NCBI GenBank assembly: GCA_018398765.1
Contig: JAHBMJ010000861.1
Coordinates: 1,540-40,272 of the forward strand
Reading direction: 5' to 3'
Length of the DNA stretch: 38,733 nt
Source of the DNA: Chromera velia
Lineage: Eukaryota; Sar; Chromeraceae
In this document: positions 3,268 to 37,746 of the stretch, piece after piece
Layout of the letters: every line of letters starts with the position of its first letter
How positions within the stretch are numbered: the stretch's first letter is position 1
Made by a program: the position numbers and the translations under genes
Notes under the pieces: generated by a model
Seen by the model: only the letters and a program-made list of their open reading frames with translations
The model's database searches: none
Told to the model about the DNA's origin: nothing

Positions 3268-3352
3268 CGCGGCTTGCAACACGGCTCAGTCTGGAACTGA
3301 GCTCAAACAACAGTGAACAACACCTCAGAAATAAAAGTTTATACACATTGCT

Positions 3353-3556
3353 AAACAGGAAACTGCTGGTGCAGAGGCTATAGGTTGAGTCTGCAAATTC
3401 TGTTCCATAGAATTGATGAGAGTGGGATGGGTGAGAAATCTCTCAACTTTCAGCTCTGGAGGCCACTTGGTTGGTTCAGTTGAGTTTTTGGCGGCGAAGC
3501 GCCGCCTACATATGGGCGGGGGGGGGCAAAAAGGAACCCGGCGGGCCCCGGCATGC
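3353..3556 (-). repeat. Right terminal inverted repeat
   Basis: Reverse-complement partner of 419-612. It contains a near-palindrome GGCGGCGAAGCGCCGCC (around 3490-3506) that is only partly kept in the left copy, and a longer C/G run, so the copies have diverged by substitutions and small indels. Confidence 0.85.
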
Positions 3557-5924
3557 GTTGAATTGCTGTCCTTGCGATGGCCTTTTAATTTTCTCAAGGA
3601 ACAATATTTGCGTGTTTTGGTCCGTACGGCCAGTACAGATCTGATTGAAGGATGGCTGAATGAGATTGCGTTTCTGGAGCGCTTTAGGCCAACGATGTAT
3701 TGAATATGTTTACATGTGTATCTTCCTTATTTCGATTCTTTTTGTCCTATTGATCTTCGATCGAGCGTCTCTTTTACATAGCACACAGAGCCAGAAGCGA
3801 TAGAAAAAAGACAGTGGCGAGACCGAAGGGGGGGGTCGCGCGTGATGTTGTGTATTGGAATTGCGGTTGCTCGTCTGGCATGTCAGGATTGAGAGTGTGC
3901 GCATTGGTACTGCGGCTTGTGCCAGGACGATTTTAAATTGTGCGCGTGACCGATCGTTCACGGAGTGGTGTTTGAGCCATGCCGAGATTTATTGATTTTT
4001 TGCGCCGTACGTGTATTTGGCATCGAATTGGCATACATCCGTCTATCTATATATGCGTACTGAGATACAGGCATGTGAGATTTCGAGTAGAAGGACTGCT
4101 CTTCCACTGAACACAGTGCTGCCGCTTACTAGCACAGTGCGGAGACGGTTAGGATATACGTTACAGCTGTCTGAAGTAACGCGATTTCTAAGGTAACACT
4201 AATTACTAAGACTAATATTGAGAACGTCACTTTATTTTTGCCCACTTTCCAAAGCGGATGGGAGTAGATGGAACGTGGCAAGGTCGCCTCATATAGCACG
4301 TTACATGCATGAATGCCGTTCCTGATTTTCTCAACAGAAGAATCTGACTCTACAGACAGAAGGGAAAGCAAAAAAAAGCGTCTGAAAGTAGACAGAAGCC
4401 ATATAAAACATGAAGCTACTTGTGTAGATGGCCTTTCTGACTGTTTATCGATCTAAAATCTCAAGGTAGCCGAACGATAATTCAATTTTGATCCGGCTTG
4501 CAGCGTTGCGAACCTGAAAGCCAGCGGGGGCCATTTGTGCCCTTTTTCACATACAAGTTTGAAACACTTTATGGTTCTTGAACAATTACATGATTTCGAT
4601 GTGTTGCTTCAACATTTGACAAAAAGGCCTCTAACCAAGTAACTCGTAACTATTTTTAACTCCTAATAAAAAGTGAGTAACCATCCACTATAAGGTCTTT
4701 AAACATGTTTTAAACAAGTTTTAAACATTTTTTAAGATAGGCTTTAAATGATGGTTACTGATCCAAAATGACCTCTAACTGAGTAACCCGTAACATCACG
4801 AAGCGACATGTATTTAACCCCTGTAACCTATAATAAAACGAATAACCCATACCAAAATTTTGTGTTTTTTGGAAGTAACTCGTCAAGCCGCACCTGAAAA
4901 ATGTTTGGTTACTAAAAAATCTAACGAAATTTTTACTTTTTTTGGTCATATCAGCTCAAAAATCTAGTATACATACCAGAAATGCTGCTTCCTAGCATTC
5001 ACTTATCTCCCTCTGTTTTCAGCCCTTACTTGAATGCGTGTACCTTCAGTCTTTCTTCTCCTGTCATCTGCCTCCGTCTTTCTGTCTCCCGCCCTCAGGT
5101 CTTTTTCCTTTTTCTTCAGCCGCTCATAGAGGTATATTACGATGCGGGGCGGCGCATGGTGTGGCATGGTGTGGTACACGGCTTGGTTAATGAGAAAGTC
5201 ACTGCTGATTACAGCCGAGAATTGCCCTTGGCTCAAGTTAACCCGATCTAACCGAGAAAATCAGACCCTTTCAAGTTGAATCAAACCTAACTGTCGAAAC
5301 TGCTGAATACTAATCATAATACTGATCAACAGACTATTTGTTTAAAACGGTTTGATCGCTTAAAAATGGTAGACTTGTCTTTAATTTTTATGATTAGTTT
5401 TAAAAGTATTCAGAGGGGTTTCTATATAATAGATTTAAACTTAAATTTCGGAGTCACAATTTATTTTGTATTATCTCTGATGATTGAGGGTAATGATGAT
5501 TAAGGGTTTTGTTTTGAGGATAATTGAGGAATTTGTCATGTAAGTCGCGTCCCCATATATGAGGATCGAGCGGATCTAGCCTAGTCAGTATAATCTCTAA
5601 GTACAGACTCATCGGTTTTAGCCTTACTGGGCCCCGGCATGCCGCAGGAGCGTAGCGGAGGCGGCATAATGCATGCATGCATGGGCCCATGGGGGCCGCG
5701 CAGTCCCGGACAACGGTCGAAAGGCGGTTGAAAGGAAGACAACGATAGACAACGCGAGTTTGGAGACGCTTCTGATTCTGACTCCTCCATTACTTAATTC
5801 TGTTTTTTGCTCTCGCTAGCTGACCTCCGGATGACTAGTTGTTTTGAGAAGATGTGATCGCTGTGTGTAAGAACGCAGTGAGCGGAACAGGCAGAGCTCA
5901 GCAGGCAGCTTTGTACCCGAACCG
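3557..5924. other. Intergenic region, AT-rich centre, no gene recognised
   Basis: No frame here is convincing. The centre (4440-5000) is AT-rich, with (T)TTTAAAC repeats at 4705-4737 and two copies of CTCTAAC(C/T)(A/G)AGTAAC(T/C)CGTAAC at 4630-4650 and 4773-4794, the trace of an old duplicated or mobile sequence. From about 5630 composition changes to GC-rich sequence ahead of the large + strand gene, with a (TGCATGCA) cluster at 5670-5681. Confidence 0.5.
5629..5642 (+). repeat. Isolated copy of the terminal string of the inverted-repeat element
   Basis: GGGCCCCGGCATGC here is identical to the outer 14 bases of the right end of the 419-3556 element. It is followed by a small inverted repeat (ATGCCGC ... 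GCGGCAT, 5639-5667). It could be a relic or solo end of a related element, or a coincidence helped by its palindromic sub-words. Confidence 0.35.
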
Positions 5925-8900
5925 ATGAACGTTCCACTTCCTGGTCTCTTCCTGGCCACAGGGATTGCGGAGGATAGTGGAAGGGCTTCGGAAGAGCCAG
6001 GCATCTTTTCACTTCCAGTCGTTGCAGCGCAGGCAACTGGCTCTTCAGGTGCACCTCAGCAGGCCTGTGCCTTCCCAGAAGCCCCCCTTGTGCAGGCCCT
6101 TGTGGTCCCCTCAGCCACTCATCAATCTCTGCTGCCGCAAGGTGCTGGAGAAAGAGGTCGGAAGGATCAATCTCTCCATGACTTTCGTTTTTCGTCTCTG
6201 AAACACACGAAAGTACAACGCCTGCATATGATCGATTGGTTTTTGTGTTCCCTTCTTTGTTTGCAGGTGGATACAGAGTCGGCCGCTTCGAGGTCATTGA
6301 TCATGGGCGTTCTATGGATGTGGAAGGAGGGAGGGGAGGAGGCATCTTGCAGGCTCTCCATCAGTATCAGCAAAGTGAGATGATACACAGACAGCAGCAG
6401 TATATTATTTCGAAAGACGTGCCCCCCGCAGATGCAGGCGGCAAGTCTCACTCCTCCCTTCCCCTGTCTTCTGCACAAGAAAGTCAAGAGGGACAAGACT
6501 CAAGCACGGCCGCTGGAGCTGCGGAAGGACCTAGGAGACAGAGTGCAGACACGGTGCGACATGCAACCGTCATCGGTCCGCAGATCGGAGTCAACGGAAG
6601 TGCGGCAACATGCAATGGACCGCTTCTGCTTCTTGTCGCTGGTCCTACAGAAGAGGTCAGTGGGTTGCACGCAAGTTCATTCTCTGACCCAGACTGCTGG
6701 TTGGTTGCTTTCAAATTTGGCTTCGTTTCTCGAAGTGTGCCTGTTGGACTTCCAATCCGATCTCTTGTGAGTGTTTTGCCTGTACACCGCCATCGTGCAC
6801 AGAGCGGGGCATTCGCAGTGAACGCCCCTCCCTGCCTTTTCTTCTTCTATCCCGTCTACTGGCCTCCTGTAGTCTTCACCTGCCTTGGAGTCTGTACATT
6901 CTTCGCAAGTTTATTCTTAATCACTTCGCTCTTTCGCTACAGCTTTTCGTACCTTGATCGGGTCTATTTCTTTCCCTCAATACTCCAATAGCTTTGACCT
7001 GTCCCCTTCCCGTCTCACCATGCTTCTGTCTGTCTGCTCACAGCGTAGCGAGTGCGGAAGGAGGGAAGAGGATACACCCCCTCCCTTTGCCTGTTTGTCT
7101 CTCCTTTCTCTTCTCTTCTCTTTTATGCTCTTTGTTTTTTTGCTTGTCTTCCTCCTCTCACCCCGCCTGTCTGCCTCCATGACCCTCCACCTCTTTCTCT
7201 CACTCTGTGTGCAGGGGGGAAAGTCCTGTGCGGGCAGCGACTCCGGGGCTACTGTCTCACTCCACGGCGCCCCAACAGCCGCCTCCTCGAACGAAAAGTC
7301 ACCGCCTCAAGCTACGACACGACACATGACAGAACACGCAAGCGCAGCGGGGGGGGCAGGATCATGTTTGCAAAAGAACGATGCCGATGTAGAGGGATCA
7401 GGAGTGCAGCGGCGGGATAATCCTGACGGGGACGGTGCGTTGTCTTCAGGGGAAGTGAAAGAAAGAGAGGGAGAGGTAGACCGCACAGCTGTTGGAGGGC
7501 CGAGTGCTTATAGAGTTCTTGCGACTCAGCTCGCTCCTATGGCTCTTGCCACTTCCCCCGTTATACCTCTACTTCCCCTCCCGTCTCCATCCCCCTGTGC
7601 CCACACGTTTGTAGCTGGACGAGGAGAGAATGGGGAGACCGCAGATCCCTCTGCTGCTTCTTCCTCGGCTGCGGCCGCAGCTTCAGGGCAGCGCCGCACC
7701 CCCAAGGCGTCAGCTTCCGTGCCGTCTGTGCCGTCTTCCACCGGCCTCCCGTTTCCTTTGGATTTGCAGGCCCTCCTTGCGACTGCAGTAGAGTCCGTTG
7801 TTGCAGACAAACTCGGAGACGGTTTCAAAGAAGAGCTGCTGGACAGATTGGAACGAAGATTCGAAAAGCAAATTGCCGAGAAATTAGAAGAAGAAGAAGA
7901 GGTCGAATTCGAATTCAATCAACACCACCATCACCATCACGGAGGGCATCCGACCGATTCCCCAGACCCATTGCTTGCAGAGGGCCCAGTAGAGTTTCAT
8001 CCCCCATCGCCGTCTCCGGTCGGTGGTGATCACTCAACCTCGGGGGTTGGTCTGGATACAGGTGGGAGTGAATTGCTCAGACATGCGTCTCCGTTTCTTA
8101 CACGGTCACGACCCCCGCTTCCCCCCACGCCGTCACCCTCCAGTCATTTTGTTGCATTTCCACTCAGGGCAGGAACTCGGCCTTCGACAGTCCACTCGCA
8201 CGGGGGTGACACGACTCTGTTTTCCTACAGCTCGTGCTCCTCACCCCAAACGTGTTATGCAACATCACCCCCGCCCCTTCATTTGTCTCAGCCGCTGCAT
8301 ATACGTTCTCCTAGTGGCGGGAATCTAGGTCTAGGCGGAGAGGCAGAGGGAGACGAAGAGGGGGACCAGTCTTTCTCTCTTGACTTTCAGGAGGCCGCCT
8401 CGCAGGTGGTGAAGGCAGAGGAGGGAGAGGCAGGTGCTAGGACCCCTGCGCAAGTGTCCCATGGGGGAAGCGCGAGAATCGGGGGGGGTGCGCATGGAGT
8501 GCTCCGGCTAAGTAGCAGGAGGAGTGAAAGATTGAGAAGTCGGTGTCATTCGGGAAATTCATCCATTGGGCCTGGAGAGGATAGAAGGAGAAGGGGGCGG
8601 GTGCGTTCTGCTAGTTGTTCAGAATTGGGGGTGTTATTGGAAGCAGTGCAGCCCCCATCGTCTGCGAGTGGGGAAGAAGAAAAGAAGGGGGTTGGGAGTG
8701 GGGAAGAAGAAAAAGGGAAGCCCGTTCCTGTAGATGGTTCTGGAAAGGAGACAGAAGAAGAAGGAAAAATGAAAGGACCTTCAGTAGGCAGAGAGCGAGA
8801 GAGGTTGAAGAAGAAAAAGAGGGGGAAAGAGAGTGAGGGTGAAGAAGATGCTGATGATGAAGAGGAAGAAGGGGAGGAAGAGGAAGAGGAGGAAGAAGAA

Positions 8901-10396
8901 GGAACGGTGACGGTGAAACAGCGGCATTCATTTGTTTCCGGTTTTTCGGACGGTGCAGGGTGTGATTTTGATGAAGCTTGTGCAGATGGAGAAAGGGGTG
9001 TGGGAGCTGAAGGGGGGGAGGTGGCAGCTCGGAGCGGGCATCGGGAAGTTCCTCGGGCCCCTCTGAGTCTGGCAGCGGCGTTCCCCGGAGGGGGGGCGCG
9101 TCATCGCTCCACAGGGGCCAGTCGTTTTCGTCAGGGGCGTTCGTCTCGTCGTGCCGCCAGTCTCCGTCTCCGTGGTTCTTGCACAGATGTTGAAGGAGAC
9201 GGAGGAGATGGTGAAGGGGTAGAGGGAGACGTTGAGAAGTCTCCTTCGGTTGACCGCTCGTCCCTTTTCTCGATGAAAGCTCGGGCGGTAGGGAAGGGGG
9301 AACGGTATAAAGGTTTGTGGCGGCGCCATAGGGGTCCTCGCGGTGTGCCGGCGGGAGGGTCTCGGACCCCAGTTACAGACACTCCCTGTACGAGTGTAAG
9401 CAGGCCTGCTGAGCTTGCGAGTGTAAATGGGACAGGGAATATGACCTCTCGTTCCCTTACAACATCCGCGCCCCTTCCCCCCCCCTCGTTTAGTGTGAGT
9501 CTAACCCGGTCTCACTCCCTTGGGGGGCCTCCCACATGGCCCGCCGTCGCTCTGCAGAGAGGGATGAGGGGTGGGGGTCAGGCAGAAGTGGAGACGGGTG
9601 GGGGAACTTTCAGTCCGTCTCCGTTGACGGCACGCGGTGTCACATACGCAGTGCCTTCGGGTGCTCTTCAGAAAGATCTGCGTGCGTCAGATCCTGTCCC
9701 CGTCTCTGCCCCCCGTGGTTTTCTGCCACGGGGGGGCAGAGGCTTGATGGGAAGTAGACACGGACACATGCACTCGCACTCGCACTCCGTTTGGGACAGG
9801 TTGCGGAGTCCTCATGTTGCCTTCCGTGGTGACATGCGGGACAGACGGCGAATGAGATTGAGGTTCGGCACTGTTCATGCAGAGCACCATGCAAGGTTGA
9901 GAGTGGGGGGGTGGGGATTGGTTGGACCGGCCAGTATCAGCGGGGGGCAGTTTTGGGGGGAGGGACGCAGGGGAGGAGGACCGGCTGCCGTTGCTGGTGG
10001 TGTGGAAACACCGGCGGGAGGGATGGGTGAGGATTCTATGGGCAAAGGACCCCAGCAGGCAATGCTGAAGGCGCTCTCTGGGTTCCAGAGATCAATTGTG
10101 AGTTTGTTTGTGTGTTTTCTTTTTCTGTTCGATGCATGGCCAGTTGGGTGGGTTGATTTGAGAGAGACCACTTGAATCGTTCAAATCGATGATGATGTGT
10201 GAGGGAGGTGTTCGGCTGAAGAACTGAAAGCTAATCATTCCTTCCTTCTAGAGCTGCTTTGGATGGACGCGTGCCTCCGTCTGTGTCAAAATGAAATAAT
10301 CGTTGTGTCCCCCGTGGTTGATCGAAGTTTTGCTTGTTCGCTGTCTTTTCTTTCCCTTTTGCTTGTTCGCTTCGTTTCTTTTCGTCCTGATGCATT

Positions 10397-10434
<38 letters not shown>

Positions 10435-13400
10435 GGGTGGTCTGTCTGTCCAGTCTGTCCGAGCAGAGAAGGAGTCAAGAGAAGAGAAGGAAAGACAGAA
10501 AAAGAAGGGTCATCCAGTGTGTGTGGATGTCATGTCCGTACGCCTGCCTTGTCCTTGCCGCTTGCTTATTCTTCTGATGCGCCTTTGCTTCTGATGTCTG
10601 TCTGTATTTCTGAGCTGTATTTCTTTTTTGTTTTTGTGATTTGATGCCTGCAGGTGAAGCTGGAAAAGCAGAACAGAGGGCTGCTCTCAAGAATTCGAAA
10701 TTTGGAATCCGAAAATCTGAAACTTCAGTCAGTCAGTCAGTCAGTCAGCGAGCGAGTCGGGGAGGTCTTCTGGGCACACGAAATTGATTGCCTTTCCCCT
10801 GTCGTGGAATGTTCGATAGAGTCGAGCTTCGTGCAATTTCTGCTGCTGCTGTCTCAGATACCCTTCAAAACGCATGAGTTTTTGTTTCTTGCACCGTTCT
10901 TATCTTTTGTCCTGTACGCCTCTTATGAGTGAATGAAGGAATCTTTTTTTATTCCGTCGCCCTTTGAGGAGATGCTTGTTCGTTTGCACTGTGGGTATAA
11001 CGTTGCGTGTCCTTCTTCGTTGTGCGTGCAGGTCTGCCAATTTAGAGCTGAGAAAGCAGAGGCTGTTTCTTGAGGACTCGACAAGAGGAAAAGCCGCTGC
11101 AGGGTTCTATCCGCACCCCCACTCTCACCCTCACCCGGGGGTAGTTACTGCCGCTGGAGCACACCCAGGCGGCAGCTTTCCGGGAGTTCCCCCGTCTGCA
11201 GGGGCACCAAGGGTGGTGTCATTTCTCCGTCGGTCCGTGCTCTTTCATCCGAACAGACTGGGGGGGGGAATTCCTAGCGGGACCCAACATCGCTCCGCCT
11301 CGAAGCAGGTGTCAAGGGCTCATGGCGCCGCCACATTGCCCCACCCGTCGCCGCAACTTCTCCCCGAGGCAGTGATCAATGTAGATGCGCAGATGGGGGG
11401 AGGTGATGTCAACGACGGGCTTACAGGGGAGGCATGCACACCCCGGAAACCAACCTCCAGCGGGGTGATGGGGAGTGTTGCCGGGGGTGATATGACCAAA
11501 ACAACGGCTGCCCCCCCCATGCCCCTCACGCTTTCCCTCCTATCCCAGTCAGGCTTCCAGAACGGTCCCCCGACAGGCGAGACCCGTGCCGGCGTCTCTG
11601 TCTCCCCCCATCCATCGGGAGGCGGCCGTCTCTCCCCCTCCCGGCAGGCAGCAGAAGGAGACGGGGGACAGGCAGGAGGAGAGAGAGAGAGAGGAGGACC
11701 TTCATCCTCCAGAGGGGCCACTCCCCTTGCACCGCAGCAGGAAAACCAGTCCATTGGTCTGGGGATTCAATTTTTCCTTAACCGCTATCGGGGTGCAGCC
11801 CAGCAGCGACAACCAGCGGGTGCAGAAGGAGTCCGGCAGACGGCGATGGGAGAAGAACCTCCTCCTAGCGTCATTTCCCCTAACCGCCCCCCCCCTCCCC
11901 AAGAGGGGGCGCAGGAGACAGCAGGGATGACGGGCGGTGCAGGCGAAAGACAAGTTCCCCGTTTTGTGGAGGGGAGCGGAGGAAGGGATGAGCCCCCCCT
12001 TGTTGAAAGAAGCAGTCACGCGACAGAGACAACAGAAACCACTGCCCTGCCTGCCGCTGCGTCCTTCCCCTCAGTTGCCCACTTGGACACTCACGAGCCT
12101 GCAACTGTCCCAGCAGGGGCTGTCGCGTTGGTCGGGCCAGGGGGTGGGGGCGAGGGAGGGGTAAGTCTTGGGATGCTGCCGCAGAGGGGAGGTGAGGTTG
12201 TGTTTGGAATTTTGCCGTCAGGGGCGCAAACAGCAGCGTCCGTTGGCGCCCCTCATATGCCGACTGCCGGGCAGGGGGGCGGTCTGGCAGATCTGATGGC
12301 GGCGGCGGCGGGGCACGTGCCCCAAGAAGTGATGGTCGCCTCCACACTGCTGCATCCCCATGGGGGAATGGGTGCAGGTATGTCTGCCGCCGCCCCCGGC
12401 GAGGGGATGGACACGACTGTCCATTTACCGCCCTGTGCTTTCTCTGAAGGGTGTCCGACAGGTGAGCCTGGTGAGCGGTCAGCGATGGCAGCGCCGTTAC
12501 TTTCCCAACCCCCAGCGTCTGCGTCTTCTTCTGATTTTGTTGGGAATGCACCGGCTTACTTTGGGTGTCATCCCATGGGCATGGGGGGTGATTCCTCTGC
12601 TTTTTTTCTTCCCCCCGAGATGCGCGGAAGCGTGTCGTTGGGGACCTTCCAAGGCCTCGTGCCTGCCGGTCCGGGTGTCCGTCCGTTGAATCAGAGACGG
12701 CACTCCCATGGCAGTATGCAACAGGCACAACAACAAGCATCGAGTGAGTTTTGGATGCAACAGGCAGGGTTGGATGGCCTTGTATGCTCACCCCTGACTG
12801 CATTATCGTCCCAATCAGGACGTTATAGAGCCGCCCCTATCTCAGGCTCTCACGGCCAACCGTCGGGAAGGTTGGGTCCCCGTTTTGCGAGTTTTGACCT
12901 GCAAGAGATTGAATCTGATCTCTACCTGCACCGCCGTCCGCACCACCCGTCCTATCTCCACCAGCGACAAGCCGTTCTCTTGAACACACAGAGAAACGGC
13001 CAAAACGCTCATCCACATACGTCAGCCCATTTCGGGGATCCCAGTCCGATCCCCAGCCTGCCGTCACAAATCCCGGCAGGCGTCGCCTCCGTGACGGGCG
13101 GTGGCGCTTTTTCAACGACCGGCTTCTCAGCCACACCCCCAGGCACATCCCCTCGCTCCTTTGAGTCGGCCCCGCTTTTCTTGGCAGGTCCAGATATGAA
13201 TATGCAGCGAGGGGGGGAACTCATGACAGAGGTGACTGCCTCTGGTAGCACCCCTGCTGGGTTGGCGCTTATGCAGACGCATCATGCAGGGGGGGCAGAG
13301 GTTCAGGCTGCTGGTGCGGTTGTACATCTCCATGCGGGTATGCATGGTGTGGGGGGGATGCATGGGGGTAATGACAGAGAGAGCTGGACGCGTGCATCAT

Positions 13401-16054
13401 CTTGTGCGTCTTCGCAAGAGCATGGACCCCCCGCGGGACGGCGCAAGGGTGCGTCGGGAGGGGGGAGGGCCAGGGGAACCACTAGCGGTAGTGGGGTTGG
13501 GGGAAGGAAGAATCGGATTCGTCTGATCGTTGACGTAGATGAAGAAGAGTCAGTTTCGGGGGGGGTGGGGGGGGCTGTAGGTGCCAGTGCAAATAGAGGT
13601 GGGGGAGGAGCGCAGGGTGGAGGGGGAGTGGGGACGGGGCTATCGCGTGCAGACAGCGGAGGGGCGTTGAGTGGGGGGACCTCGGAGGCCGGGGACTGCC
13701 CCCCTCATTTTTCGGGTCCCCTCTCGTCACTGCACGCACCTGGTCATTCAGGTGCGTCGTCTAGGGGGGCGCCTGGGAAAGCGGGGCCTGGCGAGTATGC
13801 AGGGTCGCAGGTGCAAGGGGTTTTCCTTCAACAGACAGCAGGTGAGGCCCCGACATCCCACCTGCAGCATTCAGGGGGGGGCCTTCTGCTGAGGGCCCAG
13901 ACGACTGGTCTGCCTGCAGAGGTCACCACAGCGACGGCCAGCGGTTTGGCCGCCTTCGGTGACCGGCTGCATGAGGCGGGGGGGTCCATGCAGACTTCCC
14001 TTTCCGTCTCAGAGCCGTCTCCGAATCCTGCCTTGGTAGAGGCCCCCCCTGTGGGGTTTGGGCTTGAAGGGCCTGTAGGAGGGGGGGGGGAGGGGGCAGA
14101 GGCAGAGACAGACGAGTCTGCCCGTGTTCTCATTGACTCCGATCTCCAGTTACAGCTGTGTAACCCCGCACACGCCCATCCTCATGCCCCCCATGCGACA
14201 GTCAGTCACGGCCCGCCGGGGCTGTCCTCCCACATCCATGGAGACGCCTTCAGCGACAGAGGGGGGGAGGGGGACGCTTTCCTTCACGGGGGGGTCCCTC
14301 GTGAGTTCAGTCACCCCTCCTCCTCGGGTGAGGGTCCCACGGACAGAGAAAGAGAAGGAGGGGGCGCGCCTTCTGACCCCACGTCACACTTTCCCCCGTC
14401 TCTTCCTCATGGGTCGGGAGAGCCGGATGGAGCCTCAGCCTCTGTCGCGAAGCCGGGGGCGCCGGGGGCTCCTCTGAAAGGACCCAGCCGTTTGCGCGCC
14501 GCCATGCGCGATCGCCCTCTGGTTGCCGTGCCCGTGCCTCACGCAGAAGGAGACTGCAGCTTGCCGGCAGTGCTCCAAGGCACAGGCGCCTCGGCAGCCG
14601 AGAGGGAAACGGTAAGGATGGTGCGTCGGAAGCGTGAGAAAGGGGAAAGAGAAAAGGAGAGGGACAGTAGAGATGGAGGGGATTCATGTCGGAAGACAAA
14701 TAGAAGTGGCACCTCCGCCACAGTCTCCCCTCTTCCCTTTCCCCTCAGCAGTCAGGATGCCGAACATTGGATGCACAGAGAGAGAGTGGGGGATTCTCGT
14801 CCGTCTCTGCAGTCTCTCGTGTCCCACGGTTCCGGTTCTTCGTTCACACAGGCGGATAGGGACCTGCACCTTCCTTGTGTCGAATCCCTTCCAACCTTTT
14901 TGGCACACCAAGCGGCATCGCCAGCCGCAGCTGCCGGCGCCTCCGGTTCAGTCTCCGGAGGCAGTTCGTTTCCCCCGACTGCTCTGAGTCAGCACCAACA
15001 AACACGCCCCCCTAGCCAGGCAGGTACGTGCTCGAGTTCTGTGGATGGAGATGAGGGGATGCACTCTCGTATGGCTGGGGCCTTTCAAGGCCCTCATCCA
15101 TATGGGGGAACTGAGAGAGATGCGGGCCTTCCTGCTCCCTCTGCATCCATACACGACCATCTGCCAACCCAAACCGATCACCTACTCCCTGACGGACCCT
15201 CGTCTCACGTCCTGGGTCCGGAAGGTCCTGAACTATCGGGAGCGGGGGGGAGGGGGCAGGGGAAAACAGCGCAGAAGGGGGGGGGAGATCGCCGTCGTTT
15301 CCTTTCCCCCTTAGCATCCCTTCTAGCTGCCCACGCAGGGGGGCCTTTAGGGTCCTCCGGAAGTGCACAGCTTCAGGTGCACCACGCGGCGGCGTCGCCC
15401 TCTGCGTCTTGCAGTGCTCAACCGTCGGTAGCAGAGTCCTCCTGTGCCGTCTCGTGTGCTGCTTCCGATGCTGCGTCTTCCTGCAGAGGGGACGATGTGG
15501 CTCTGTCTCTCTCACTGGCACATGGAGGCCCGAGTGCAGCGCGCCCACTTGCCTCCGGACCGGCGCCTTCCCATCACCTCCATTCTCAGGCGCCACCCCC
15601 GCTCTCCGTGCAAAGCGCGGTACACGGCCACACCACCCAAGCAGGCTCCTCCGCCTGTACGCGTACACCTCCGGGATTCCCCCCCTCGTCCTCTTCCTCC
15701 CCGTCCATTCTAGGGTCGCCCCAGTCTCCCCCCACAGTCATGGGGCCGGGGTCCTCGTCCTCCTCCCAGAGCCACGCTCTCCCACAGCAACATCCCGCAC
15801 CCACCTTGCCGCCTGTGAGTGAGGGAATAGAAGGTGACGGGGAAAGCGTCAGGGGTGGGGGGGGTGACAGGGGTGGTGCTGGGTCAGACAGGGGTGGGGG
15901 ACCAGAATCGGTCGACCTCAGAGACTCAGGGGACGGGGGCAAGGAGAATGAAGGAGACGCGACTGGATGTGAGACCGTCAGGGCTGGGGTTGGGGTCTGG
16001 AAAGGACAGGAGGGAGGACTGGCTGAGGAAAGGGAGGGAGGGGATCTCACGTGA
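5925..16054 (+). CDS. Very large low-complexity protein with a short coiled coil (about 2,830 aa, five exons)
   Basis: I do not recognise this gene. Model: exon 1 5925-6048 (ATG 5925; donors near 6142 and 6157 also keep phase, so its end is uncertain), exon 2 6267-6655, exon 3 7215-10097, exon 4 10654-10727, exon 5 11032-16054. Phases agree at all junctions. Exon 2 begins GYRVGRFEVIDHG. Exon 3 holds a charged helix (EELLDRLERRFEKQIAEKLE), a six-histidine run (7924-7941), Ser/Pro- and Gly-rich segments and a long Glu/Lys-rich acidic tract (about 8750-8910). Exon 4 is a 74-base exon encoding VKLEKQNRGLLSRIRNLESE, which with the start of exon 5 (ANLELRKQRLFLED) forms the only clear coiled coil. 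Exon 5 is 1,673 codons of Gly/Ser/Pro/His-rich, mostly disordered sequence without a recognised domain. The stop at 16052 coincides with a GTGAGT donor-like string, but the best nearby acceptor also gives an immediate stop. A scaffold or regulatory role is possible; no catalytic function is visible. Confidence 0.7.
10399..10436 (+). repeat. (GTCT)n microsatellite in intron
   Basis: About nine GTCT units inside the intron between exons 3 and 4 of the large + strand gene. A related (GTCA)n array starts directly at the next donor, at 10728. Confidence 0.9.
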
Positions 16055-21458: not shown

Positions 21459-24400
21459 TCACATACCGATGGGCCAACCCTGCTTGACTGCGCCTGCATC
21501 CACAGTCTCTCCTGCGGGTGCCAATGTTCTCTCAAGCAACACCGCCCCCTCCTCCAACACCGCCCCTGCCATCACCCTCGAGTGGGCCCTCATTGTCGCA
21601 TTCGGCCCTATGCGCACTCTATCGAGGTCAAACCTGCCTCTAGAGTTCAGATGACATACCACAAACGCGTGATTGACGCACGCACCGTCCTCTATGGTCA
21701 CCAGGTCAGGCTCCGTCATCATCGGGTCACTTCCAACCGGGTACAGACAAACGTTTTTCCCGATTCGTGCCCCGAGAAAGCGGAAAAACATACAGATATA
21801 CTCCGACCCACCCAAGTAATCATCTACCTCGTGCACCCCCCTCAGCTTAACGAATTGGGTGTGCAGCTTCCAATTTCGGTTGTACGATTTCTTGTCCCAG
21901 TCGTAGTTACCAGGACTTACTTTTCCCAAAATCATCCACTTCAAACTCACATCTGCACCCAGAGCAATCAGACGGGAAACCAACGAAGCCCCCAGATAGG
22001 CCACAATCAGGCCTAGAATGACAGTGCCATCGTTCACTCCCTCCGTCCCTTCCGCTTGATCAAGAAACAAAAATTTCACTGCAACGACTGAAGCAAGAAG
22101 AGGCAAAAGTCGCCACCAAAAGACAAAAATACAGGAGAGCATACACCAGAGGCCCCAGGCAAAGGGCCCCGGCAAAACATACGGAAGCGCAGAGCTCCGA
22201 GGAGCACAACAAGCAAAAGCACTCCCACATCCCCCCGCACCGCTTGCCTCTCCATACTGTGCCTTTCCGAAGGGTTTCAATGTCGGTGCACCGCTTCCTG
22301 GTTTGCCCTCTCCAAGGCACAAGGGTCTCCCCTGTCTGTTTCCAATCCAGACAGACTCTTCAGGGACCTCAAACCCCTTCGGTGCCAGACACCCCGACCC
22401 CATGACTGCGTTTCGATGAACAGTCACCCCTGGCAGCAACACACACCGGTCAGAAACTGTGCACCCTTCAATCAGGCGGATCTTCTGTGCTTCTTTTGTG
22501 TCCGTTGTGATAAAATAAGACCGGGATCCAAACACCACATCATCCCCTATTTCAAGAAGATCGTGCTCGAAAGTCCTCAAACCCGATCCCGGCAGAAACA
22601 CACGCTTGCCGACTTTTGCCCCGAGTGCTCTCAACACCCACGAATGAAGGTTCCAGTGAGCGCCAAACACTGGAAGGAACCCCCCCAACTTTCCATTCGG
22701 AAGGAGAGTCTTCATGATCCACCTACGGAACCTCTGCCACTGTGACTTTCCCCTAGCTCCCTCAGCGAACCGACCGACAATCAAACGTTTGACCAAAATC
22801 ACGGCAAGGATGAAGACGGATGGAGTGACCACTGCATACACTGCGCGTACGAGGAGCATGTAGCAGATCTTTTCCCACCCTGAAAAAAACCCCACTGCCC
22901 CAGAGAACGAAGTAAAATCTGCCGCTTCGAGGAAAACACCAAGGAACACAGCCAGGGCGGGAGCACGGGACAGAGCGTTGATGAGCATCACCAACGGCAT
23001 TCCGAACAACCACCGAAGGAGAAAATTCAGGGGGTCTGGTGCTGCCTGGCATGCGGCTCTGAGATCGGGGTCCCATGTTGTCCCCTCCCTTGCGGCGCTG
23101 TTGGGTGCCACTGTGCCTCTGCGTAGCACCTTGCAGGAGGGATTCAGGACTCCGTTATGGCACACGAACGCACGCTTGCCGACCTCAATAGGCGCACAGA
23201 AGAACGTGCCCCTGTCTGCAACTCCCGCTCTGCAGTACGCAGAACTGTCGACCTTGCAGCCGTCTCGAAATTCGAGTAGGTCGTGTTCCCCCACCTGCAA
23301 ACAGAGAGAGCAATGATTGGGATTCGAAATCAAAAGACGGAGAGACGAAAGGACATGTACGTCTGCGCATCCTCTTCTTGTTTGAGGTTCTTTCCTATTC
23401 AACCAGCTTCACCTCCTACTACAATGAAAGACAGCTACAGCTCCACTTTTACAGTCAAGCAACATTCATTTAACGTGACTGACCAACATCAGCACGCAGC
23501 CAACAAAAACCAGAATATAGAGAAATGTCAGGCAGGCCTATGACTGGAAACAAGGGATGAACTTGTCCCCTCATTCTCCCTCCTCCCCGGCCCCTTCCCC
23601 TAGCGTCCGACTCCTCATTCCCACGACCGACCCACCTTTGCATACGGGCTGATGGAGCATCCCTTCCCGACGTTTGCCCCCAAGAGCCTCAGGTATAGGG
23701 AATACAGAGGGTCCGAGGCTGCGAAGATTCCCTTCCCGAAAATGCTCAGCACCCTGTCAGTCAGGTACCACCTCAAGTAGACCCCCCCCCAGAGAGGGTG
23801 CCTCCCCTCCTTCAGTCTTCCGAGCACTACGTGCTTGAAGAGAATACCAAAAAGAGGGAAGGCAATCGATCTGATGGCATAAGAGGTCACGATGGCAAAC
23901 AGGACGGAAGAGAATCGGAAACTGGAAAAGAGCCGATTGGCAGTCACCCACATATAGAGGAACAAAATCCACGAGAGAACTTTTCTCAATGGGGAGAAAA
24001 ACAACCAAGGAAGCAGCTGTACTGTCATTGGAAGACAGCTGCGGCTGTTCACTTTTTCTGCCCCACTCGCACGGCGTTGTTGGCGTCTCTTTCGTCTCGT
24101 CGTCTCCCCCCCCTGCTCTCCCTTCTCAACATCAAGCTCTTCATCCCCAGAAGAGAAGACAGACTCCGCCTGTGAGTATTGCTTTTGAAACAGATACTTT
24201 TGGTTCGCCCGTCTGCTCTGCCCTCCTGTCCGGGACCTGTGTGTGCCCTTCCTTTCTAATCCTCCCCCATTCCCTCCTTGATCAGCTGCAGTTGTGTGCC
24301 TGAGCTCCTCCATTAGGGCGGACATCTTTCGAAGCGATCGCTTGTCAAAGATCGCCATGCCTGTGACTGCTACACCGAATTCTTTTCGGAGGAGAGCAGC

Positions 24401-25618
24401 AAGCTGCCCGGCCACTAGGGAGGAGCCCCCGACCTCAAAGAAGTCGTCTGACGGCCTGAAGGGCACTTCTCCTTCCTTCATTTCAGTGCCGAGAAGTTCT
24501 GCCCAAAGCATGCCCACCTTCTTTTCTGTTTCTCCGAGATTCCCGTCCCCCTCCTCCTCTTTCCCCCCCCTTGCATTCATAGCGTCGACCCACTCTTGCG
24601 GGAGTGCGCCGACTGTCCAGTGTCCCGAGAGGGGGTTCTTGGAGGGGGGAGGACTAGGTGCCTCGGGCGGGGGTCGGGGGACCAGAATGAACTCTCTCTG
24701 GGTGGGTGGTGTTCCCTCCTTCACCTGCAAGCCCATCGGATGGATAGATGGATGGATGGATGGGCGAGTAGATAACTGTGTTTCTAAACGTTCAGGCTTG
24801 CAGAATTCAAAAACGCGTTCCACATTATGCTGAAAAAGGACCCGAACCAAAAAGAGAAAATCGCACATCAGACAGGCATACAAGAACAAACAAACTCGGA
24901 AGAGCGCGCAAAATCTCCCTCTTCTCCTTCAGGAAAACGACAGACATTGGCTTCTTATTACTCAAGGCTGGTCACCCCCAACCCCTCATCCTTTTTCCAA
25001 TTTCTTTCGATACCTCTCAGTCTTCAGTTTCTCTTCCCCCCCCTATTGCAGCCCAGCCTGATTGATTCCTGACCTTCGGGAGAGAGATCTTCGATGCGAG
25101 GCCGATTCTCACGAGTTTGTTCGACGCGTTTTTTGGGAGTTCGGAGACGTGCACGAGGACGTAGGGCCACTTTGTCGGGTGCAGAACTTGGGCTGCAAAC
25201 TTTCGGATCTCCTTCAGGCCTATAGGGGGGGGAGGAGACGGGTCCCCCTCCTTGTCTGCTGATGAGGGAACGTCGGAAGAGACCACAGCGACGCCCACCG
25301 TCTCCTGAAGTTCTTCGTGTGGGGCTGCGAACACACAGAGAGCCTTGATGCCTGGACAGGACAGGAGGGCGGCTTCGATCTCGTTGGGAACCAGGGTCTC
25401 TCCTCCTCTGTTGATGATCTCCTTCGATCGGCCTGCAAGGGCAAGAGAGAGAGGGGAGTGGGGGGGAGTGCGTATGGAGTTTCAAAGCAACCAACACAAT
25501 GAGTGACTGCAAGTACCTCACCACTCACTTCATAGAGAACGAAAAAGTGAGGCGGATCCTCGCTTACATACGGGCACACCCAAAGTGAACGGCAGGCAGT
25601 CTGAAGAAAAGCGAAAGC

Positions 25619-25659
<41 letters not shown>

Positions 25660-26423
25660 GAAAGAAAGCCTACCTACCTGTAATGAAAAGAAATCCTTCT
25701 GAGTCCAGACGACCCATGTCCCCCGTGTCCAGCCATCCGTCCAGAGTTCTGCCAGTGTTGAAGGTTCGCGTCCCTGCAGCGAGGTCCGGAATCTCATACC
25801 CCTTCATCACAGGTGCCCCCCTCACAAAAATTCTTCCCGTCTCTCCCGTCTCCTTTGCCTCCACTCTGCCGGGTCCTTCTCCCACCAACTCTCCAATACA
25901 AATATCTGGACCCAACAGTTGACCGCTCGTGCCGGGGCGTTCCAATCTATACCCGACAGGCGGGGCAGTCACGGGCATACTCTCAGACAATCCGTAGCAC
26001 GGCATGATGCTGGTGTTCGGGTAGGCGTCTTTCATCCTCAGTGCAAGGGAGTGATGAAGAGGCCCGGCAGCGTTGTTGATCATTCGGATCACACCTGCTG
26101 CTAGACTGCACCTCCCCGTCTCCTCGTCTATGTGCCCCCCTGCCTGGAGAGCATCCAGGAACCCCGTGTGGAGCGTGGGGGCTCCGTAGTACCACGTGGG
26201 AGCTCTGTCTCCCATGGTGAGTGACTCGACGAACATGTTGGGGTCGAAGGAGGGGAAGTGGAGGGTGCAGCTGCCACTGAACAGAGGGCCCATCACTGTC
26301 CTGAAGATACCCCCTGCATGCATGGAATGGGACCAGGGTCACTTGTTGTTCACGCATGCATGCACACAAGACACACATTCACACACACACACACACACGC
26401 GCGCGCGCCCGCTGAGAGAGAGG

Positions 26424-26455
<32 letters not shown>

Positions 26456-28205
26456 CACACAGACGCGCATACACACACGCACACACACACGCACACACAC
26501 ACACACACCCCGACACACAGAGGCATTGGCACAGAGGCATTGGCACACAGGCATTGGCCCACAGGCACACCGACACACATTCTCATAAATTAAACCAAAC
26601 CAAACGAAACAAAGGAGAGCATGCAGACAAAAAAAGACCGACCCGCATGGAAGAGAGGCATCATGTTCGCGCACACATCCCCAGGTCGGAGGTCCCCTGA
26701 CGCCGCGATGATCACAGGCCCCAGCACGACGTTCTCCAGAGAGTGTACGACCACCTTCTTGTTGCCTGTCGACCCGGAAGTGTGCATCAGCAGGGACTCC
26801 CTCCCAAAGTCTGCATGCAACAAGCATGTACACAAAGAAGGGGACATGCAACAATGCGGAAATCTGCACTTGCTTGTTTGTTTGGACAAAAAAGAAAATC
26901 TAGTGGTCGAAGGGACCGACGAGGCAAACTCAGATGGGCACGTGAAGGCAGAGAAAGAAAAGGCGAGAGCAGGAAAGTACAGCATTGCATGACGTTCATC
27001 ACACTGGGAAAAGCGGCGCCTATGCATGCATTCTCCCTCCCTCCCTCCCTCCAAGTAAACAGACAGACAGACAGACCTTGAAGTTCGATTTCGTCGAGGG
27101 AGCTGAGGGAGCATTCGTCCTCTCCCCTTTCGTCCTCGTTCTCAGGAATCCCCTCCGGAAACTGGACTTGGGACCTTTGCATCCTTCTGCTCTGACAGGC
27201 ACTACCCGCAGCTCGGTGTGACCTTCTGGTCTCCTCACCAAGCCCTGCTCTACTCGGCCCTCTCGATTTGTGAAAGAGTGACCGAGCTAAATGGCTCAGA
27301 GCCCCCCCCAGGCCTGTCTGAGGAGACCTGTACGCCTCCCTGCCTTTCATGGGAATGACTTCCTCGACGTACACGAGACCCACTTGGTCCTCGTCACTCG
27401 CCGCCGCCAAAACACCAACCTCCTCCTGCCTACACCACGCACAAAGTTCAGCCAATCTCTTATCTTCAGACGACAGAATGAGAACGTCTATGCCGAAACT
27501 CTTGGCCTCGTGTGTGATTTCCTCGTATGTGCTGTTGAAGTTGATGGGTGCTGCTACGGCCTGAGACATGACCGAGGCAAGCAACGTGGCCGCCTCGCAC
27601 CCCTGAGGCATCAACAGCCCCACACGTGTGGAGGGACTAATACCATAGGAACTGCCGAGCTTCAAGAGGTCTCCTGTCAGATGAGAGTGCCACTCCTTGA
27701 ACGTCAAAGGCTGTCTGCCACTAAAGTCGTCGAGGGCCACAGCATCAGAACGAGGCACCAGAGCCAGTACTGGATTCTGCGTGTCTGCCTTGGCAATGGC
27801 CCTTTTCACAAGCACACGGGCATCGTCTGACCTGAGTTCTCCCGTCCTTTTTCTTATCTCACACATCTCCCGGATCCCGTCAAACAAAGGAACCTCACCA
27901 CTCATCAAGGTCTTTGTCTTTGTCTGTCTAGATGCGACTCCTGTCACGAAATGCCGCCTTGTGTCTACACGATTCACAGGACCTGCGTCTCTTCCAACAA
28001 CACCCTGTGACTTACTTCCAAGGTCAAACTGCAAAACTGAGTTCCCCTTTCCTGCATCTGTGAGTGCCGAATCGCTGTGACGGGGTTCCTTCCAAGGTTG
28101 CTCAAGGCCATGCAAAGGCGGTACTCCAACAGACACCGCACTCTGATGTAATCCTGCCGCAGCCGGACTGCGGGGTGGATCGTTCGGCGGCCTCGGTGTC
28201 GCCAT
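21459..28205 (-). CDS. NRPS-like synthetase: adenylation, carrier and Pls-type membrane/beta-helix modules (1,738 aa, six exons)
   Basis: Exons, in transcription order: 28205-27077, 26810-26643, 26313-25678, 25432-25074, 24724-23636, 23294-21459; all junctions are GT/AG and in phase. The adenylation domain (about residues 110-764) has the ATP loop LMHTSGSTGNKK (385-396), HAGG (431-434), YGLSES (539-544), WLDTGD (626-631), GRSKEIINRGGE (645-656) and the C-terminal Lys750 (NASNKLVR). A carrier domain follows with DDFFEVGGSSL; Ser866 is the expected 4'-phosphopantetheine site. From about residue 997 come three repeated modules, each two membrane segments and a hexapeptide-like beta-helix domain, with cognate motifs LLGANVGKG, ALGAKVGKR and FLGARIGKN. 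This matches the known A-T-six-TM-three-C-domain layout of epsilon-poly-L-lysine synthetase (Pls). Activation of an amino or other carboxylic acid and membrane-coupled condensation are inferred. A charged insert of about 70 residues (310-376) precedes the ATP loop. The N-terminal ~105 residues look disordered. Confidence 0.9.
25627..25656. repeat. (GA)n microsatellite in synthetase intron 3
   Basis: On the minus strand this is a (TC)n tract 20-50 bases inside the 5' end of the intron between exons 3 and 4. Confidence 0.9.
26382..26512. repeat. (CA)n/(GA)n/(CA)n compound microsatellite in synthetase intron 2
   Basis: Alternating CA, GA and CA arrays occupy the middle of the intron between exons 2 and 3. 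Minus-strand translations give valine/cysteine and serine/leucine repeats that are artefacts. Confidence 0.9.
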
Positions 28206-28963
28206 GTTTGTTTGTGGTACAAGCTACGCCTCGGTTTACTTCAGTTTTTGAAGACCGAGAGGAAGTACAAAAGGCTGACTCGTTGAGACTGATAATAGAG
28301 AAGCAGAAAATTGTGTCTTTGTTGTTGTTCCTTTGTGCAATCCTGTCTTTCTGCACAACCTGGTCGGGTTGCTGCATTTCAATTTCGACAGCTGCCGTGG
28401 TTGTTGCTTGCGTTGCACTGTGTTGTTTGCATGCGTTCTTTGTGTTCGCACAAAGACTCGTCTCAAGGTGTGGCCCCGGAACACTCCGCTTGAGCGGCTC
28501 TTTTTTTAAAAGGCGAGGGACCTTTGTAAATGTCGACGCTATAACGGGCTGGGCGCACGGCGCGAGGAGTGATTCGTCACGCATGTCGTATACCGAGGCC
28601 CGGAAGGCAACTTTTCGATATTTTGCTTCGTGCGAAAAGCCGGCAAATCATATAAGCGCTTCTCCAAAGTTCTTGGACGTGCCCCACACAATGATTTGCG
28701 GGGCCCCTATGTTTTCTGCACGCGCTTATATAACTGTTGCGCAACAGCTTGGTGTTGCTGCACTGTTGCACAACACTCCACCAGTGGAGGAAGCAACAGT
28801 CGTGGTAAAGTCAAGCTTTTGAAAAAACCGTTCGGTCTGTGCTTGTTTTCATACCAGAGAAGTCGACTCTACTGTATACAGTCATTTTCTGTCAGAAGAA
28901 AGAAATTTCCAAGAAGAGAAACTCCATAGAAAGCAAATTCGAGAACATTAAGCTGATCCCGCC
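28206..28963. promoter_or_regulatory. Shared divergent promoter region of synthetase and aldo/keto reductase
   Basis: The start codons of the minus-strand synthetase (28205) and the plus-strand reductase (28964) are 758 bp apart and point away from each other, so both promoters and 5' leaders must lie here. A TATA-like TTATATAA (28726-28733, itself palindromic) directly abuts a 14-bp palindrome at 28734-28747. Long open frames cross the region on both strands, but none has an early ATG or a recognisable product. Confidence 0.6.
28734..28775. promoter_or_regulatory. Palindrome CTGTTGCGCAACAG and near copy
   Basis: Perfect 14-bp palindrome at 28734-28747, followed by the near copy TGTTGCACAACA at 28764-28775, centred 29 bp apart (about three helical turns). 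The core TTGCGCAA is the half-site arrangement bound by C/EBP-type bZIP proteins in animals; whether a related factor binds here is inference. Confidence 0.45.
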
Positions 28964-32830
<3,867 letters not shown>

Positions 32831-34189: not shown

Positions 34190-34390
34190 ATATGTATACA
34201 TATACTAAACACAACTCAATTTGGCAAACCCATACAGCCAATGAGTTAACAATTATATTTCATTGCGATTGCAAATATAAAAAAAAATTATCGTGAAAAC
34301 AGTTTTTTGATACTTGCAACATGTTTTTGATAATATTCGTAAAGTCTATACAAATTTTTAAGTTTGTACACACGACCGATTACGTTAGCA

Positions 34391-34847
34391 AAAGGTTTGG
34401 TTACGTGGGGTCTGATTCTTGTACGCTAACCCTCAACCTTTATTCATGGATGGACCCGGACCGAGACGGTCTCTCTCTATATATACTCGCTAGATTTTTA
34501 TACGAGGAAAGATTCCTAGCACGACCTCTACTGATCTCATTCAGGAAGTCTGTGCTCAGTCTATACCATCAGACCTATCGAAGAGTTCTTGATTCATAGA
34601 GATCAAGATGTGTTTAAGGCTTAGTGCAGAGTAGTTCAACATACAATCAATCGCATTCCATCGATCAGTGAAGCAATTTCCTGGCCATGCATACATGTAT
34701 GCAGCTTGATTCAATCAATTCTCGTATATGCATGCATTTCCTCGTGCGTATGTGTGTGGCGTGTCGGTGGCCCCCGATTCCTGCAAGCTAGTGAGGGCGG
34801 CGGATGTTCAGAAAGGTGGCCGCGCCCGGTGGCAGCGCCAACCCTTT
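34391..34847 (+). repeat. Left ~450-bp direct repeat
   Basis: About 95% identical by eye to 36535-36984, same orientation. Differences are mainly transitions plus small indels around 34700-34780. Confidence 0.9.
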
Positions 34848-36534: not shown

Positions 36535-36984
36535 AAAGGTTTGGTTACATGGGGTCTGATTCTCGCATGCTAACCCTCAACCTTTGTTCATGGATGGACC
36601 CGGACCAAGACGGTCTCTCTATATATATACTCGCTAGATTTTTATACGAGGAAAGATTCCTAGCACGACCTCTACTGATCTCATTCAGGAAGTCTGTGCT
36701 CAGTCCATACTATCAGACCTATCGAAGAGTTCTTGATTCATAGAGATCAAGATGTGTTTAAGGCTTAGTGCAGAGTAGTTCAACATACAATCAATCGCAT
36801 TCCATCGATCAGTGAAGCAATTTCCTGGCCATACATGTATGTATGCAGCTTGATTCAATCAATTCTCGTGTATGCATGGATTTCCTCGCACGTATGTGTC
36901 GGTATAGACCCCGATTCCTGCAAGCTAGTGAGGGCGGCGGATGTTCAGAAAGGCGGCCACGCCCGGTGGCGGCGCCAACCCTTT
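36535..36984 (+). repeat. Right ~450-bp direct repeat
   Basis: Partner of 34391-34847, with the same terminal strings AAAGGTTTGG and CCAACCCTTT. Confidence 0.9.
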
Positions 36985-37003: not shown

Positions 37004-37087
37004 CGTTTGCAAAAAATATGAAAATTCAAAGTCAGGCGGCCCCGGAAAACGAATCCCAACTTTGAATTTTCATATTTTTTGCAAACG
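37004..37087. repeat. Perfect 29-bp inverted repeat with 26-base loop
   Basis: 37004-37032 (CGTTTGCAAAAAATATG onward) is the exact reverse complement of 37059-37087. The loop 37033-37058 is GC-rich. It is interpreted as the core of the fold-back element; as RNA it would form a long hairpin. Confidence 0.9.
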
Positions 37088-37746
37088 TAATCAGTGGTGC
37101 GTACGAACTTGAAAATTTGCACAGACTTTACGAATATTATTAGAAACATATTGCAAGTCTTAAAAGACTGTTTGCACGATAAAAATATTTTTCACATTTG
37201 CAATCACAATCATAATCGTACCAAATTGAGTTGCACTTGGTATATGCATATAGGTAATCAGGCTGTGATACACTAATAATGGTGATCATATTATACGACA
37301 CTATATTTTTTATTTCTCAAGCGTTTATAAAGTGTCAATGTACACTCTTTAGAACTTGAATGACATGTTCCAGATATGTTTGAGCCTACGCAAAGGGTTC
37401 TTTAAACCAGAGGCAGTGACCTCCCAAAAATGTCCTCGTTTAATCTCGCCATGAAGACTTTAACATTGATTGAGACCACTATGTTCCGGCTGGAAGAGGC
37501 AGACGGGCGCCACTGCAGAAAGATGTATGAAATGAATGTAATCGCAGATATTTGCACGTATTAAAGTATTTGATATGTATAGATCTATATAAATTAGACT
37601 TCTATATACATAAATTTACAAAAACCTATATAATTTTTTTTATATTTTTGTGCGGATTGATTGAATGATTGATTGATGCCAAACCCTAGGTAATAGGGGT
37701 CTAGAATTGCTATCACAAAACCTTATAAAGGGGCATTGTGGGCTTT

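Follow-up and report, generated by a model that had tools for sequence, protein, structure and literature searches.

Whether a Pls/PosA-type domain architecture in a eukaryote is enough to make its product a peptide synthetase is the question raised by a gene of Chromera velia on contig JAHBMJ010000861.1 (GenBank assembly GCA_018398765.1). It occupies positions 28205-21459, minus strand, of the 38,733-nucleotide (nt) stretch of DNA analysed here, which we call the window, and joins an adenylating domain, referred to below as the loader, to a carrier and a membrane-embedded C-terminal half. The initial annotation had described it as a Pls-type synthetase, possibly belonging to a peptide-polymer system. 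The domain order and the best-matching family support that name, but the type of the loader and the score of the membrane module do not. Judged from its sequence by profiles, PDB matches, motifs and a tree alike, the loader is of the acyl-CoA-ligase type near oxalyl-CoA synthetase, and not an amino-acid domain. We propose, at a probability of about 0.55, that the gene encodes a putative single-chain membrane acyl-transfer enzyme in which an acyl-CoA-ligase-type loader and a carrier are combined with a Pls/PosA-type module of transmembrane (TM) segments and beta-helix units.

The gene model predicted from the sequence has six exons and five GT-AG introns (245-349 nt), which leave a single frame of 1738 amino acids (aa) down to the stop codon at 21459 and bear out both the coordinates and the exon number given initially. 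The exons join at aa 376, 432, 644, 764 and 1127, and four of these five joints are covered by single NCBIfam stretches: FadD7 (aa 380-757) spans those at 432 and 644, NF005307 (aa 372-758) additionally spans, if barely, the one at 376, and TIGR02353 (aa 1006-1320) spans the one at 1127. In Pfam, successive frames matched AMP-binding, AMP-binding_C, PP-binding and Hexapep, with the AMP-binding match of the exon 1 frame (E 9.9e-6, 25.0 bits) below its cut-off of 29.9. The carrier serine is Ser866, as had been proposed, in the segment FFEVGGSSLVAG that begins at aa 859, and the domain matched PP-binding with E 2.4e-11 to 3.1e-11. C-terminal to the carrier, Kyte-Doolittle hydropathy at a threshold of 1.6 marks five hydrophobic stretches (1038-1065, 1218-1249, 1270-1305, 1500-1541 and 1549-1574), while the sixth TM segment, upstream of 1038, stays under the threshold; two stretches of the soluble adenylation (A) domain (396-414 and 663-681) slightly exceed it, so this test is not sharp. 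Among the three beta-helix units, C2 matched in the PDB an N-acetyltransferase (7s43, E 1.9e-5), a gamma carbonic anhydrase (6x89, E 8e-5) and a protein described as "bacterial transferase hexapeptide repeat" (4n27, E 3.9e-4), the last exon matched Hexapep with E 5.6e-9, and C1 and C3 were assigned via the TIGR02353 alignment.

The type of the loader was examined with the joined 1738-aa protein against NCBIfam (best 25 of 90 families at E 1e-5) and the PDB (best 60 of 74 matches). The top family was TIGR02353, the Pls/PosA terminal module (2e-61, 208.2 bits, cut-off 423.1), followed by the FadD7 ligase (166.4 bits, 9.4e-49). Beside TIGR02353, the best 25 families comprise 23 acyl-CoA ligase/synthetase families and one acyl-ACP--phospholipid acyltransferase, and neither TIGR01733, the amino-acid adenylation family, nor any fatty acyl-AMP ligase (FAAL) family is among them. 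The best PDB matches were oxalyl-CoA synthetase (6qjz, 2.5e-33) and oxalate--CoA ligase (5ie0, 9.2e-33), then malonyl-CoA synthetase, and the first nonribosomal peptide synthetase chain among the best 60 was 3wvn, at 1.2e-16. The adenylation motif set, taken as complete in the initial annotation, is indeed present with A3, A4, A5, A7, A8 and A10, and it retains the A7 Asp, A5 Glu and A10 Lys, which are catalytic positions of adenylating enzymes; its A3 is odd, however, and its A4, PLFHAGG, is of the acyl-CoA-ligase kind, whereas amino-acid A domains have FDxS. Likewise, A8 (GRSKEIINRGGETLVPNEIE) is ligase-like, where Pls-type A domains have GRxDxQVK. In the alignment, PLFHAGG, TWY..PT.H, GRSKEIINRGGE and LPKNASNKL are unlike Pls A domains and nearest to rows that we take to be AAE3-like from the PDB match, the rows themselves being annotated as AMP-binding protein or unannotated; the blocks GRxKEIINRGGE, TWY...PT.H and LPKxxxxKLxRIG are common to these rows and the loader. 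A search of the genome with a 338-aa loader query found no second copy of the loader, the next match having E 2.2e-9.

The genome of C. velia, scanned over 177.8 Mb in 4040 contigs and without relatives in the prokaryote collection, has six contigs that match TIGR02353 with an E value of 10 or lower (C1658, C3597, C3992, C152, C3928 and C860, the last being the contig of the Chromera gene itself). In single frames, C1658 (486.9 bits) and C3597 (442.2 bits) exceed the cut-off and the other four stay below it, with a weak match on C3928. Amino-acid-type loaders are found on C1658, C3597 and C3992 (loci L022, L023 and L024), while locus L025 (G000:C152:44500-54400, minus strand) has a FAAL-type loader, a carrier and a Pls-type module in one gene. 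The L025 loader scores highest with a long-chain ligase subfamily (224.3 bits) and next with several FAAL families, the best of them at 216.7 bits; C152 also carries a DIP2-like C-terminal domain (29.3 bits against a cut-off of 27). In the Chromera gene a known architecture has had its loader swapped, and L025 represents another swap, of a different kind, within this genome. Two side observations concern the other paralogues: L023 (G000:C3597:144000-152000, frame 2507-7228, plus strand) has an extra C-terminal stretch past the module that seems, by eye, to contain several hydrophobic segments, and L024 (G000:C3992:43500-53400) has stop codons within its module matches, which would mean that an intron went unrecognised, that the assembly is wrong there or that the copy is decaying.

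For the membrane module, 42 bacterial modules were aligned first and each row from the C. velia genome was added singly. The set consists of six modules from a genome-contig scan, 26 from Pseudomonadota, five from Acidobacteriota and five from plasmid records, three of these actinobacterial; because it includes near copies (L034, L037, L038 and L039), the 42 rows are not 42 independent proteins. The comparison used columns with at least 95% conservation among the bacterial modules, 13 of them polar. The module of the Chromera gene aligns end to end with those of Pls/PosA, but it keeps 5 of 11 polar columns (2 gapped) and the FAAL-type L025 keeps 5 of 13, compared with 11 of 11 (2 gapped) in L022, 11 of 12 (1 gapped) in L023 and at least 10 of 13 in every bacterial row when each was left out in turn. 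In non-polar columns the Chromera gene (19/24) equals the ordinary paralogues (L022 20/25, L023 18/25), so that it is far worse than them in polar columns only. L025 is weaker in non-polar columns too (13/22), and general divergence accounts for part of its polar loss. A joint alignment gave 5/12 for the Chromera gene (1 gapped), 5/13 for L025, 11/11 for L022 and 12/12 for L023, with a Fisher p of 3.4e-6 when the two loader kinds are pooled and positions are treated as independent. In the alignment with rows added singly, the values at 90% conservation were 8/18, 8/22, 16/19 and 16/21 in the same order. In the Chromera gene, R1082, R1349, E1655, H1675 and E1723 are retained; D1384, N1427 and Q1673 are lost with identical substitutes in both alignments, T1624 has become Ser, and R1515 and E1603 are lost with substitutes that vary by alignment.

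The loader and the module both bear on the alternative that the protein really is a homopoly(amino acid) synthetase, one whose substrate is unusual, so that its loader would activate an amino acid and the module would polymerise it. The architecture, TIGR02353 as the best family and the presence of the same module with amino-acid-type loaders at three further loci of the genome all favour it, as does a weak TIGR01733 match obtained with exon 3 by itself (29.7 bits, where FadD7 scores 62.9), which counts against our proposal. However, an A-domain tree of 27 rows, made by a quick method and with long branches that limit exact placement, puts the loader in a set of four with L008 from its own genome (a row that fills 43% of the columns) and two plasmid ligases, with support of 98. 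A tree that forces the loader in among the 15 Pls-type A domains is worse by 79 log units, and the approximately unbiased test rejects it (p-AU 5.98e-7). The tree was built without any characterised AAE3, the link to which comes from the PDB matches. The A4 Asp missing from the loader is present in all 42 bacterial Pls-type proteins (40 FD, 2 YD), and ligase-type A4 was found in none of these 42 from Pseudomonadota, Acidobacteriota and the five plasmid records. In addition, a module at 208 bits against a cut-off of 423, with about half of its conserved polar positions lost, makes a peptide homopolymer unlikely. We therefore consider a homopolymer synthetase quite improbable, and the amino-acid loader assumed initially is contradicted by profile, PDB match, motif and tree alike. 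The C-terminal half did not group with unrelated enzymes; its TIGR02353 score makes it a distant relative of the Pls/PosA module. The half with other affinities is the N-terminal one.

Besides the limits of the A-domain tree, several observations weigh against the proposed membrane acyl-transfer enzyme. In the loader, A3 reads TSGSTGNKKV, with NKK instead of PKG, and a Gly stands where the HxHG block of the AAE3-like rows has its second His, so that oxalate itself is not supported as the substrate. In the terminal-module tree, the Chromera gene and L025 have end branches so long (3.85 and 4.75) that we place no trust in their grouping, and AlphaFold gave unusable models for exon 6 (pLDDT 36.0, 5 rows) and C2 (35.3, 6 rows). 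The loader-carrier joint sits in an intron-bearing linker, the joint at aa 764 is crossed by no NCBIfam stretch, and an alternative in-frame acceptor for exon 5, judged by eye, is possible at about 24829. That no stretch crosses aa 764 also favours a division into two genes, in which an acyl-CoA ligase would finish with exon 4 and the carrier-membrane part would begin a gene of its own at exon 5; further points for it are that the exon 4 frame continues to a stop at about 25017 and that an ATG (MGLQVK) immediately precedes exon 5. Nevertheless, the intron is in phase with GT-AG ends, loader and carrier share one uninterrupted frame in paralogues L022 and L025, and a carrier without a loader would be an orphan, which leaves this division very improbable.

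The loss of polar positions could also mean that the module no longer catalyses. It would then merely anchor the loader and carrier to the membrane, and a separate enzyme would take the acyl group. The loss of D1384, N1427, R1515, Q1673 and other conserved residues fits such an anchor, but the five polar residues that are retained, the 611 codons through which exon 6 stays open and the non-polar conservation at the level of the ordinary paralogues do not, and we regard it as unlikely.

Returning to the proposed membrane acyl-transfer enzyme, the sequence itself shows its domain order, a loader that is not of the amino-acid type, a carrier serine and a module in which roughly half of the conserved polar positions are lost, and we infer each step beyond the domain types. 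Since the loader comes from a family that handles plain organic acids, an acid is probably attached at the membrane rather than a peptide made. The loader would use ATP to turn a carboxylic acid that lacks an alpha-amino group into an acyl-AMP, our first guess for this acid being a small or dicarboxylic one, and the acyl group would pass to the phosphopantetheine on Ser866 in place of CoA. From there the membrane module may transfer it, at the membrane or across it, to an acceptor that provides an amine or a hydroxyl group. With no amine on the loaded unit, a single acylation that caps the acceptor would be expected instead of repeated isopeptide bonds.

The predicted enzyme resembles three known systems and differs from each. 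It shares with Pls/PosA (TIGR02353), a family of cationic homopoly(amino acid) synthetases, the adenylation domain, the carrier and the three TM-pair/beta-helix units in one chain, but its loader belongs to another branch of the ANL enzymes and lacks the A4 Asp, its TIGR02353 score is less than half of the cut-off, and about half of the conserved polar positions are gone from its module. In FAAL-carrier systems the loader gives the acyl group to a carrier rather than to CoA, as we propose for the Chromera gene, and paralogue L025 is of the FAAL kind, although the 25 best families of the Chromera gene include no FAAL family. The AAE3/Pcs60 oxalyl-CoA synthetase group provides the best PDB match of the loader, but these are stand-alone enzymes that use CoA, whereas the loader is fused to its own carrier and membrane module and has lost one His of HxHG. 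In a study on grass pea, AAE3 is described as forming an amide directly with diaminopropionate, and the acyl adenylate is said to stay in the enzyme until that amide forms (PMC9935904). Pls/PosA-type synthetases are described from fungi as well, in a report on Epls (PMC7179176), and PMC10522769 mentions Pls homologues in "Alveota" (Alveolata), Amoebozoa and Metazoa and calls the substrates of sequences from other eukaryotes unknown; given the alveolate homologues mentioned there, a gene of this family in an alveolate would be no novelty. In the open-access literature we found no ligase- or FAAL-loaded version of Pls.

All eight loci from the genome-contig scan had amino-acid-type loaders. TIGR02353 was matched at E 1e-25 or better in at least 27 of 398 Pseudomonadota genomes (at least 26 above cut-off) and at 1e-15 in at least 27 of 199 Acidobacteriota genomes (at least 5 above cut-off), these counts being lower bounds since the best candidates per genome were scored. 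A viral-contig scan with exon 6 gave no pattern match, and the phage records gave one unannotated record of 18.9 kb. Dropped before the 42-row counts were L035 (a second record of strain E41, same as L034), L040 (cut by the contig end), L041-L046 (duplicate proteins or a fragment), L073 and L074 (fragments), and L080-L103, whose matched frame lacks the adenylation core. L071 (shortened) and L072 and L079 (under the TIGR02353 cut-off) were kept, and L108, L110 and L112, outside the motif pattern, were included by hand. On a Sphingomonas plasmid (L109, NZ_CP155753.1), genes for a phosphopantetheinyl transferase and a GNAT acetyltransferase adjoin an ordinary Pls/PosA gene.

Table 1. Parts of the Chromera gene in the window
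Feature	Position	Strand	Content
Exon 1	27077..28205	-	Start codon, N-terminal extension of about 100 aa, first part of adenylating domain
Exon 2	26643..26810	-	A3 (LLMHTSGSTGNKKVVVHS), start of A4 (MPLFHAG)
Exon 3	25678..26313	-	Adenylating core A4-A7 (TWYYGAPTLH, YGLSES, TGD); AMP-binding E 2.1e-14
Exon 4	25074..25432	-	A8 (from GRSKEIINRGGETLVPNEIE on), AMP-binding_C E 1e-8, A10 lysine (LPKNASNKLVRI)
Exon 5	23636..24724	-	Carrier with Ser866, TM pair 1, start of C1; TIGR02353 E 3.9e-15; 5' edge possibly about 24829
Exon 6	21459..23294	-	Rest of C1, TM pairs 2 and 3, C2, C3, stop; TIGR02353 E 4.5e-42
Intron 1	26811..27076	-	GT-AG, 266 nt
Intron 2	26314..26642	-	GT-AG, 329 nt
Intron 3	25433..25677	-	GT-AG, 245 nt
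Intron 4	24725..25073	-	GT-AG, 349 nt; loader-carrier linker; 3' end uncertain
Intron 5	23295..23635	-	GT-AG, 341 nt
C2 beta-helix domain, hexapeptide type	22305..22742	-	PDB matches

Elsewhere in the window, pieces of an aldo/keto reductase gene adjoin the Chromera gene in divergent orientation (28952-29924, plus strand), with a Pfam match of E 2.2e-4 and 20.8 bits over two joined frames, below the cut-off of 24. A 300-nt direct repeat (34391-34690 and 36535-36834, 97% identical, 2144 nt apart) is flanked by 115-nt inverted arms (34279-34393 and 37077-37191, 83% complementary) and is probably a mobile or duplicated element. On the plus strand lie a pair of very long open frames, 6921-10175 (1084 aa) and 10937-16054 (1705 aa), which are rich in Ser, Gly and Pro by eye and had no Pfam match at E 0.01; at the same threshold none of ten neighbouring frames matched Pfam, and Rfam gave nothing.

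The membrane half of poly-lysine-type synthetases is described in PMC10522769 as being, at that time, without structural information and with a role that was modelled and not shown. Our PDB searches found no structure of such a half, although a search with the divergent Chromera sequence could miss one. It is possible, though we hold it only tentatively, that the Pls/PosA module is a portable acyltransferase independent of the kind of loader (amino-acid, FAAL or oxalyl-CoA-ligase-like), the non-amino-acid versions capping an acceptor that may be the homopolymers of their paralogues. Naming by architecture alone would make the Chromera gene a "peptide synthetase", contrary to the type of its loader. 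Natural loader-swapped versions such as this one could separate the residues that handle amino acids from those that transfer acyl groups and so give direct mutants.

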